From Anaerolineae bacterium (GTDB lineage: Bacteria; Chloroflexota; Anaerolineae; Anaerolineales; Villigracilaceae): DNA of 64,000 bases. Below are positions 8,004 to 10,064 of this stretch, one piece after another; position 1 is the first letter of the stretch; every line of letters starts with the position of its first letter. The translations under genes were made by a program, and so were the position numbers. The notes beneath the pieces were generated by a model. It did not search any database and was not told the origin of the DNA. It was given only the letters and a program-made list of their open reading frames with translations. The stretch is taken from contig JAJPIZ010000025.1 in NCBI GenBank assembly GCA_021324435.1, positions 62,001 to 126,000 of the forward strand. Reading direction: 5' to 3'.

Positions 8004-8681
8004 ATGAAAAAACTGATTGGGCTTCTCGGCTTACTTGCCATGCTGACTGTTGCCTGTGGAACCTCCGTACAGCCGCCGGTTTTCCAACCACCGGTTGCCA
8101 CTCCGATGATTGATGCGACAAGTTATCCAACGGTTCAAGCCCCCGAAGTGAACACCAGCCAATCGGCAAGCGGATTTTCCGTCAGCCTTCAGCGCGCCTG
8201 GCGCGATGGCAAACAGGTCTATGCGGATGTGTGCTACAGCCTTCCCGATTCTTCCGATTGGACAATCTGGGCCGCGCATTTTGAATATGGCGGGCAGGCC
8301 GTCTCAGAGTTTAGTTCCACCATGTTGAGTAAGCAGGACTCCGTTGGTGGTCAGCCCGGACAGCGTTGTGATGAACTCGGTTTTTATGTCCCCCCCGATG
8401 CAGATTTATCGTCTGCATCGCTGACGATTGAATCGCTTGGTGCCTATCCAACGGGTGATGAGTATTGTTCGCTTTACATGCCAAAAATCCAGCAGAAGCT
8501 GAATGAACGCAACTTGGGAATCACGTTGGGTTGCGCGGCAGATGCCAACGGGGCAATGACCATGCAAATCGTTGGGAAACCCGATGCCATGTCCGAGCAG
8601 GACGCGGAACAAATCGTGTTCAGCGATGAGTTCTACACAGTGCCCGGACCATGGTTGTTCCCGGTTAGTCTGGGACAATAA
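8004..8681 (+). CDS. Lipoprotein of unknown function
   Basis: 225 residues. A short basic start and hydrophobic core end in the lipobox LTVAC (Cys 18), so the mature protein should be anchored on the outer face of the membrane by Lgt and LspA. The mature part begins with a Pro/Thr-rich linker and then a mixed beta-like domain with four Cys (CYSLPDS, RCDELGF, YCSLYM, GCAADAN) that could form two disulfides. No family was recognised. An AAGGAG site precedes the ATG and it follows the epimerase by nine bases. Confidence 0.75.
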   Translation: MKKLIGLLGLLAMLTVACGTSVQPPVFQPPVATPMIDATSYPTVQAPEVNTSQSASGFSVSLQRAWRDGKQVYADVCYSLPDSSDWTIWAAHFEYGGQAVSEFSSTMLSKQDSVGGQPGQRCDELGFYVPPDADLSSASLTIESLGAYPTGDEYCSLYMPKIQQKLNERNLGITLGCAADANGAMTMQIVGKPDAMSEQDAEQIVFSDEFYTVPGPWLFPVSLGQ

Positions 8682-8684
8682 ATT

Positions 8685-8693
8685 TGGTATAAT
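8685..8693 (+). promoter_or_regulatory. Extended -10 promoter of the tyrS attenuator
   Basis: TGGTATAAT (8685-8693) is a full TGn extended -10. No good -35 is present at the expected distance. Transcription would begin at about 8699-8701, which coincides with the ATG of the leader peptide. Confidence 0.75.
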
Positions 8694-8699
8694 GCGCCC

Positions 8700-8744
8700 A
8701 TGTTGAATATATTTTCGTTCGTCTATTATTATTCCCGCGCATAG
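8700..8744 (+). CDS. tyrS leader peptide MLNIFSFVYYYSRA
   Basis: A 14-codon reading frame, ATG to TAG, with three consecutive Tyr codons (TAT TAT TAT, 8724-8732). It starts at the predicted transcript 5' end, so it would be translated leaderless. It stands directly upstream of the tyrosyl-tRNA synthetase gene. The third Tyr codon overlaps the first arm of the pause hairpin, so a ribosome stalled for lack of Tyr-tRNA would cover that arm. E. coli pheM-pheST is a known precedent for a leader peptide controlling a synthetase gene. That this peptide is made is an inference. Confidence 0.8.
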   Translation: MLNIFSFVYYYSRA

Positions 8745-8790
8745 TTCTTTGCGAGGGAATATGAACGCGCCCTCGCGGCGCGTTTTTGTT
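8731..8790 (+). promoter_or_regulatory. Transcription attenuator of tyrS (pause, antiterminator and terminator arms)
   Basis: Three pairings are seen by eye. Pause hairpin 1:2 joins ATTCCC (8731-8736) to GGGAAT (8755-8760), with CGCA/TGCG inside. Antiterminator 2:3 joins GCGAGGG (8751-8757) to CCCTCGC (8770-8776), seven perfect pairs. Terminator 3:4 joins AACGCGCC (8764-8771) to GGCGCGTT (8777-8784) and is followed by TTTTTGTTT. Arm 2 cannot pair with arm 1 and arm 3 at once, and arm 3 in the antiterminator uses the terminator's loop and top pairs. The order and the position of the Tyr codons fit the trp-operon logic: Tyr starvation should give read-through into tyrS. Confidence 0.85.
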
Positions 8791-8816
8791 TGCCATCATC
8801 TTGAGGAGGTTTTGTG

Positions 8817-10028
8817 ATGAACATTGATGAACAAGTTGAATTATTGATGCAGGGCACCGAATACGGCGATGAGGAATTGAAAAAAGCCATGACTGCCGAA
8901 CTGCGCGCGCGTTTGATCGAATCCGAGAAAACCGGGCGGCCTTTGCGCGTCTACTGCGGTTACGACCCCACCTCGACGGATCTGCATCTTGGTCACACCA
9001 TCAGCATGCGTAAATTGCGTCAGTTTCAGGATCTGGGTCACGATGTGACGTTTCTCATTGGAAGTTACACTGCGCTGGTGGGCGATCCGTCGGATAAGAA
9101 CAAGGCGCGTCCGATCTTGACCGAGGAACAGGTCGCCGAAAACGCGAAGACCTACGCTGAACAAGCCTTCCGCGTGCTCGACCGCGCCAAGACAAAGATT
9201 CGTTACAACGGTGAATGGCTCAGTGAACTCTCGCTGGTGGATTTGATCCGCCTCGGGCAGAACTTCACGGTGCAACAATTTTTGGCGCGCGAGAACTTTG
9301 CCAGGCGGCTTGAAAAAGACGAGCCGATCTTTCTGCACGAAACTTTCTACGCGCTGATGCAGGGTTACGACGCTGTCGCGCAACAAACCGATGTCCAGGT
9401 GGGCGGCACGGACCAGTTGTTCAACATCATCGTCGCCGGTCGCAAACTTCAGGAGGCGATGGGGCAAAAGCCGCTGGTCGGTGTGATCACCGGTATCCTG
9501 CCCGGTACGGACGGCGTCCAGCGTATGTCCAAATCCACAGGTAATATCGTGCCGATCAACACCGGCGCGGAGGATATGTACGGCAAGTTGATGTCCGTGC
9601 CCGACTTTGCGATGGAAAAATATATGCGCCTGGTGACGCGCTGGTCGCCGAGGGAGATTGACGCGTTGCTCAAAGAAGTCGAATCGGGCCGGGTCCATCC
9701 GCGGGACGCAAAGATGAAACTGGCGCGCGAGATTGTCAGCATTTTCTATAGCGATGACGAAGCCAGGTCCGCGGAGGAGGCCTTTGTGCGCGTATTTCAG
9801 CAGAAAGAGAATCCGGAAGATATGCCGGAGTTTGCGCTCAAAGCTGGAGCGACGGTGCTGGATGTTTTAATGGAAGCCGGTTTGGTGTCCAGCAAGAGCG
9901 AGGCGAAACGCTTGATTGATCAAAAAGGCGTGCGCTTGGATGGCGATCTGCTGGAGCGTGGCGATCAAGTGTTTCCGCATCCCGGTGTTTTGCAGGCGGG
10001 CAAACGCCGTTTTGTGCGCGTCAAGTGA
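8817..10028 (+). CDS. tyrS: Tyrosyl-tRNA synthetase
   Basis: Charges tRNA-Tyr with tyrosine in the cytoplasm. The class I motifs are clear: HLGH at residues 57-60 (HIGH) and RMSKS near 243 (KMSKS), with the Tyr pocket segment [17 protein letters not shown] between. A C-terminal S4-like RNA-binding domain ([21 protein letters not shown]) covers the last 65 residues. The length, 403, is typical of the TyrZ-like branch. The ATG at 8817 is preferred over the GTG at 8814 because AGGAGG (8804-8809) is better spaced. Expression appears to be controlled by the attenuator just upstream, and a terminator follows the stop. Confidence 0.95.
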
Positions 10029-10031
10029 ATC

Positions 10032-10064
10032 AACAAGACGGGCTTAGGCCCGTCTTGTTTTTTT
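10032..10064 (+). terminator. Terminator of tyrS, embedded in the end of the convergent gene
   Basis: AACAAGACGGGC (10032-10043) and GCCCGTCTTGTT (10048-10059) form a 12-pair stem with a TTAG loop, followed by a T-run to 10064. The loop contains the complement of the TAA stop of the minus-strand HD-GYP gene, so the hairpin doubles as that gene's last codons and stop region. Confidence 0.88.

Follow-up and report, generated by a model that had tools for sequence, protein, structure and literature searches.

The Leader of tyrS in the Window

The window is a 64,000-nucleotide stretch from a 3.1 Mb, 97% complete assembly of an Anaerolineae bacterium. In it, tyrS is preceded by a compact set of sequence elements, all on the forward strand:

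8688-8693, + strand: -10 element TATAAT, by direct reading; with the TGG at 8685-8687 before it, an extended -10
8700-8744, + strand: putatively leaderless leader-peptide frame MLNIFSFVYYYSRA and stop; 14 codons, Tyr codons at 8724-8732, TAG stop at 8742-8744
8730-8761, + strand: 1:2 hairpin (pause or protector), arms 8730-8741 and 8750-8761, from RNA folding and covariation
8749-8778, + strand: 2:3 antiterminator, seven Watson-Crick pairs between 8751-8757 and 8770-8776, from sequence, duplex prediction and covariation
8763-8787, + strand: 3:4 intrinsic terminator, arms 8763-8771 and 8777-8785, then a T-run, from RNA folding and covariation
8804-8809, + strand: Shine-Dalgarno sequence AGGAGG of tyrS, by direct reading
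8814-10028, + strand: tyrS, tyrosyl-tRNA synthetase; open reading frame with PF00579 (E 5e-69) and an S4 domain

The initial annotation had read this set as a complete Tyr-codon attenuator in front of tyrS, and its anatomy was recovered with small adjustments. The 14-codon frame is present, with its three consecutive Tyr codons and its ATG (8700) six bases downstream of TATAAT. The pause hairpin, first placed at 8731-8760, and the terminator with its T-run, first placed at 8764-8790, take in the computed fold the positions listed above, the T-run ending at 8787. The antiterminator, described as a perfect seven-pair match, is one: GCGAGGG at 8751-8757 is exactly complementary to CCCTCGC at 8770-8776. 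Duplex prediction extends this pairing by two U.G pairs (8749-8750 with 8777-8778) to 8749-8757/8770-8778, in which case the antiterminator would take in bases of both terminator arms. AGGAGG is followed, as proposed, by tyrS, which starts at GTG 8814 or, by homology, at ATG 8817 (homologues begin MNI). The segment 8700-8800 folds with -32 kcal/mol (z -3.61), and none of 200 shuffles was equally stable. No fitting -35 hexamer was found for the leader promoter, and a sigma-70 scan did not list the -10 at 8688-8693. At the other end of tyrS, a strong terminator-like hairpin (10032-10059, 12 pairs and a T-run) lies between it and a large convergent gene, by eye of PAS/GAF type.

Conservation within the Order

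tyrS is present in 136 of the 152 genomes of the window's family. DNA upstream of the gene was collected for 133 family loci, 50 of them from the single genus g8, and for 18 loci from other families of the order (151 in total). A locus scored as positive where a terminator has a stop codon a short way upstream and at least two of the last nine codons are Tyr. This pattern occurs at 116 of the 131 evaluable family loci, two of the 133 being on contigs too short, and is lacking at 15; thus, the leader is not unique to the window's genome. Ninety-eight of the 116 carry a short leader frame of their own, hereafter the mini-gene, and 18 show no nearby leaderless start. The total includes two doubtful loci, L013 (degenerate) and L111 (at a contig end), and 16 of the 18 loci without a mini-gene, the tail type described below, are clear. 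The pattern spans 21 of the 25 family genera, g9 being counted only through L013, its sole locus. It recurs at nine of the 18 loci from other families of the order, and at three of six in family f13. By the best-scoring terminator of each locus, it was seen at none of 34 loci from other orders of the class, which had been hand-picked from many matches to spread over families.

The family loci that fail the pattern are of several kinds. Reading by eye found a weaker form with one Tyr at L020, L024, L045 and L149, and terminators that the script had missed at L036 (T-run two bases past the stem) and L069 (long loop); at L012, L016 and L068 no such leader was seen upstream of tyrS. A search of 396 genomes of the class with an RNA model of the leader, R1, gave at E<=0.01 33 match rows in 30 genomes. 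All 20 strong matches (E <= 1.3e-11) precede tyrS, several of them being the model's own training sequences, and one of the 13 weaker rows (G425) also lies at tyrS. R1 is insensitive beyond the closest genera, so that its silence in a genome is no evidence of absence.

Specificity of the Leader for Tyr Codons

The choice of residue was assessed over stops in any frame lying 18-34 nt upstream of the best terminator, for which 129 of the 151 loci qualify. At least two Tyr occur in the last nine codons of 122 of these 129 leaders; Ser follows with 31, Ala with 16 and Arg with 15. Two Tyr stand in a row at 115 of the qualifying loci, two Ser at six. A chance origin of the Tyr run is rejected by the distance between 122 and 31. 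Among 123 leaders, Tyr is encoded by TAT 252 times and by TAC 108 times; since both codons occur, it is the residue and not the DNA that is conserved. The Tyr codons lie mostly four to seven codons upstream of the stop, and the remaining residues of the leader peptide vary among loci.

A Predicted Leaderless Start

An in-frame start codon (ATG in 97) lies 6-9 nt after a -10 hexamer in 100 of 123 leaders, when spacings of 4-9 nt are allowed. The spacing equals 6 in 74 of these 100, and 99 of the hexamers read TATAAT. The extended -10 of the initial annotation is present in the window as TGG-TATAAT at 8685-8693, yet only its hexamer is widely conserved: TGG precedes the hexamer in eight of the 94 leaders among the triplets listed, out of 100, and TGn is a feature of near kin. 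In family f13, L213 and L215 could use a GTG seven bases past TATAAT, and L212 an ATG eleven bases past it.

With TATAAT six bases upstream, the predicted first base of the window's transcript is the A of the ATG (8700) or one close to it, and the leader would be translated from a leaderless 5' end. The window's genome holds 45 copies of TATAAT-N6-ATG and four of the reversed pattern. Of the 45 sites 30 were read, and most of them open long frames; among these 30 only the window's own site has a short frame with an attenuator. Leaderless starts thus seem common here, and leaderless genes are probably frequent in this organism. For the leader to work as proposed below, leaderless initiation in these bacteria would have to proceed efficiently and in tight coupling with RNA polymerase.

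Alternative Pairings and Their Covariation

The three pairings were examined by a duplex test on 123 of the 151 loci (28 dropped), reduced to 62 representatives with less than 75% identity. Segment 2 pairs with the terminator loop and 3' arm of its own locus at a mean of -13.58 kcal/mol, versus -10.87 kcal/mol for swapped partners (z -9.0); the advantage of the own partner gives z -7.8 for 1:2 and -13.5 for 3:4. None of 5000 permutations reached the own-partner score of any of the three pairings, figures that are strong indications rather than strict probabilities, since the representatives are related.

Covariation was measured in an alignment (A1) of 42 of the 45 mini-gene representatives, L047, L049 and L055, which have another terminator, being left out. 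The 2:3 pairing reaches 0.297, versus 0.227 for shuffled alignments (0 of 500 as high) and 0.168 for the best slide; all ten of its pairs vary, eight of them on both sides somewhere. The 1:2 and 3:4 pairings also exceed shuffles and slides. Pairing holds in 74.4% of the alignment cells for 2:3 and in 64.5% for 1:2; part of the remaining 25.6% and 35.5% reflects segments that shift between lineages. Unconstrained RNAalifold predicts the 3:4 terminator alone, without 1:2.

When a ribosome is placed by hand on the modelled RNA, the predicted fold depends on where it stands. With a 15-nt footprint and the ribosome stalled on the Tyr codons, 2:3 folds in 58 of the 62 representatives; with the ribosome at the stop codon, 2:3 folds in 14 and the complete terminator in all 62. 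The stall-versus-stop contrast for 2:3 varies with footprint, from 58 versus 35 at 12 nt to 58 versus 6 at 18 nt. With no ribosome placed, the complete terminator forms in 52 of 62. The computable conditions that would have refuted the original attenuator reading did not come true: Tyr codons, alternative pairings and leaderless spacing are all kept across the window's family and across several more within the order.

The Tail of an Upstream Gene as Proposed Sensor

About 22 loci have no mini-gene and carry the Tyr run instead in the C-terminal tail of an upstream gene, a second architecture that the initial annotation had missed. This gene has about 170 codons with hydrophobic stretches visible by eye, and its product is probably membrane-bound. 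We call it bPH-like, as two members score 15.6 and 21.6 bits against bPH_6 (PF10756), below the cut-off of 22 bits; a CYTH identity was rejected by Pfam domain search. The gene occurs in 32 of the 152 family genomes and adjoins tyrS in 29 of 33 match rows.

We define a sensor tail as one directly followed by the attenuator, and a non-sensor tail as one separated from tyrS by an intervening mini-gene, lying away from tyrS, or followed by no attenuator. Across 37 proteins the final Tyr of the tail never varies. All 22 sensor tails have another Tyr at the position just before it, as do none of the 12 non-sensor tails; in one of the latter (L103) a second Tyr stands three residues earlier. Three of the 37 tail rows are uncounted, namely L158 (terminator lost), L019 (terminator, one Tyr) and L014 (lengthened tail), and L156, which is L036 and carries the terminator missed by the pattern script, was entered as a sensor by eye. 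By manual count, TATAAT lies 6-8 bases before an in-frame start at the head of the bPH-like gene at 22 of 23 distinct sensor-type loci (L011 being the exception) and at five of 12 non-sensor loci; in the sensor form the gene is thus usually predicted to be leaderless too. The association between tail and attenuator is suggestive rather than a test, because there are only two switches on the tree and a sign test cannot reach significance.

On a TyrRS tree the tail-sensor label, which includes the doubtful L312, needs seven changes, five of them forced by well-supported branches, in a tree built by a quick method and with many weak forks. The tail-sensor form occurs in families f6, f7, f8, f12 and f1, and for this reason an old pairing of the bPH-like gene with tyrS is likely. 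We lean, if only slightly, toward a history in which the sensor moves between genes: the Tyr-rich tail of a leaderless bPH-like gene would ancestrally have signalled the supply of Tyr-tRNA to tyrS downstream, a leaderless mini-gene of 12-17 codons, possibly a remnant of that gene, would have replaced it in several lineages, and a surviving tail would then lose its extra Tyr. If this is true, selection has acted twice on the end of a structural protein, for its role in the protein and for its role in sensing an amino acid. In the tail form the final codons of a structural gene would plainly serve as a regulatory leader, and with so many loci the passage from gene tail to mini-gene can be tested.

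Three loci with other arrangements may be recorded here. L017 retains YYYS and L014 retains YY within its lengthened tail, both with the terminator absent, and each is possibly a decaying tail-sensor locus. L024 is a candidate for a third sensor type: an acidic upstream frame ends in ..EEDEY, with its one Tyr at the stop, and the usual terminator comes next.

Probable Transcription Attenuation and Its Alternatives

The leader has the sequence features of a classical leader-peptide attenuator: a frame with cognate codons, mutually exclusive 1:2, 2:3 and 3:4 pairings (predicted, and co-varying), an intrinsic terminator upstream of the regulated gene, and a gene, tyrS, that belongs to Tyr metabolism. 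Very probably, tyrS is controlled by ribosome-mediated transcription attenuation, and in this respect the initial annotation is supported. RNA polymerase would begin close to the leader ATG, followed by a ribosome that would load on the leaderless 5' end and translate the 14 codons. With ample Tyr-tRNA, the ribosome would reach the stop and cover segment 2 (8751-8757), the 3:4 terminator would form, and tyrS would not be transcribed. With scarce Tyr-tRNA, it would stall on the three Tyr codons and mask segment 1; 2:3 would then pair, the terminator would be blocked and read-through into tyrS would follow. In the minority of relatives with the second architecture, a similar promoter would drive the bPH-like gene, and its Tyr-rich C-terminal tail would do the sensing.

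A first alternative keeps the stalled ribosome and changes its cause. The YYY peptide could bind free tyrosine, or stall in the exit tunnel, and not report Tyr-tRNA charging; the position of the Tyr, mostly four to seven codons before the stop, would suit such an arrest, and several Tyr in succession might make peptide bonds form more slowly. Yet the rest of the peptide is variable, and the sensor ends either a 14-residue peptide or a protein some 170 residues long, whereas arrest peptides of the fixed kind carry a set N-terminal code. We regard nascent-peptide arrest as improbable. Still less credible is that the hairpins are the terminator of an upstream gene together with conserved sequence, that tyrS has its own promoter and that the Tyr codons are incidental. 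Some loci have a terminator-tyrS gap of 100-200 nt, with room for another promoter, but in the window the gap between the terminator stem and tyrS is only 28 nt; the Tyr enrichment (122 versus 31 for the next residue) speaks against incidental codons, and a plain terminator has no need of the 1:2 and 2:3 pairings, which co-vary. That the leader is a diverged T-box on which tRNA acts directly can practically be dismissed, even though T-boxes abound in relatives and the window's genome has several (counts below): the leader has about 90 nt, against 219 positions of the T-box model, and contains a conserved frame, and no T-box (RF00230) was found at the gathering score in the window, nor at 8600-8900 up to E 10, so that a T-box identity was rejected.

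T-boxes beside the Probable tyrS Attenuator

Attenuation of tyrS by a leader peptide would thus operate in a T-box-rich setting. RF00230 matches occur in 61 of 61 relatives at E<=0.001, 46 of them over the cut-off, and seven lie in the window's genome. Four of these seven, with listed positions (G000; C19, C43, C32 and C22), were re-scanned: one lies 353 nt upstream of a pheS domain match, and the other three precede frames that read, by eye, as ileS, thrS and trpB-like. The window's genome retains T-boxes for other synthetases beside the probable attenuator of tyrS. G038, a member of the order from another family, has a distant TyrRS (34% identical) directly preceded by a T-box match (L384:540-842) of 74.4 bits and E 5e-15, the cut-off being 93 bits. 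Two other order members with a distant TyrRS (L382, L383) showed no T-box at E<=0.001 and, by eye, no Tyr leader. Given this T-box on the one hand and the Tyr leaders on the other, the order may employ two different RNA devices to detect uncharged tRNA-Tyr, which suggests that two modes of sensing the charging of the same tRNA have been exchanged there.

Relation to Known Systems

The mechanism class is already known; what appears to be new is the combination of Tyr codons, tyrS and a leaderless start, together with the tail form. Like the attenuators of E. coli pheST, of the trp and his type and of Streptomyces trpS and leuS, the window leader has a run of cognate codons, exclusive hairpins and a terminator before a synthetase gene; unlike these, it uses Tyr codons and tyrS, is putatively leaderless and lies in Anaerolineales. 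The accessible part of one survey lists leader-peptide attenuation for trpS and leuS in Streptomyces and for pheST in gamma-proteobacteria, and there tyrosine appears as T-box regulated, with no tyr attenuator named (PMC1262725). The suggestion that a Tyr leader of tyrS might be undescribed has held so far, as none was recognised by title or passage in the open-access literature, a scope that covers few subscription papers. A conserved Tyr attenuator would therefore concern a gene whose RNA control appears, in the literature as accessible, as a T-box.

In Firmicutes, the tyrS T-box takes uncharged tRNA-Tyr as its signal and gives transcriptional read-through as its output. It acts on the same gene as the window leader, but its RNA reads the tRNA directly, without translation. 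The available passages of one study report T-box control of Firmicutes tyrS and, for Chloroflexi, T-boxes only at ileS and trp genes of Dehalococcoides, in two genomes (PMC2494555).

The leaderless sensor frame also has counterparts. Leaderless short ORFs with poly-Cys runs have reportedly been found in mycobacteria by Canestrari in 2020. For Sinorhizobium trpL, the part of the source at hand describes an RNA whose first bases are the start codon, ATG, for a peptide of 14 residues (PMC7298713). Both resemble the window leader in placing the sensor ORF at the first bases of the transcript, but differ in amino acid, phylum and target genes.

No case of an amino-acid sensor formed by the tail of a structural gene was found in the open-access literature, as far as its accessible text goes. 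The nearest parallel is E. coli rph-pyrE, whose attenuator is not known to have a regulatory codon run. Like the bPH-tail form, it reads the end of an upstream gene at an attenuator, but it responds to the pyrimidine level and not to an amino acid. According to the passages available, translation of the end of the upstream structural gene decides there at an intercistronic attenuator (PMC2784333).

No Rfam family over its cut-off matches the window leader. Two resemble it in general shape, a codon run followed by two hairpins, and remain below their gathering cut-offs: Phe_leader (RF01859) scores 16.8 bits in the window against the 55 needed, and P9 (RF00624) 26.4 against 43. A search with P9 in 21 relatives gave no match anywhere, the controls being equally silent, and is therefore uninformative. 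Among 72,556 plasmid records one P9 relative was found, in Pseudomonas aeruginosa (NZ_CP133752.1, L390:3468-3580); its frame reads MTFATLLTRRSIITAIPAMAG and a stop, a hairpin resembling a terminator comes next, and the whole lies before an SgcJ-ilvA gene pair. P9 was thus rejected as a Tyr leader. With this frame preceding SgcJ-ilvA, the relative looks like an Ile/Thr leader, and the Rfam entry for P9, classed as an sRNA, may in fact describe a leader-peptide attenuator of the Ile/Thr kind.
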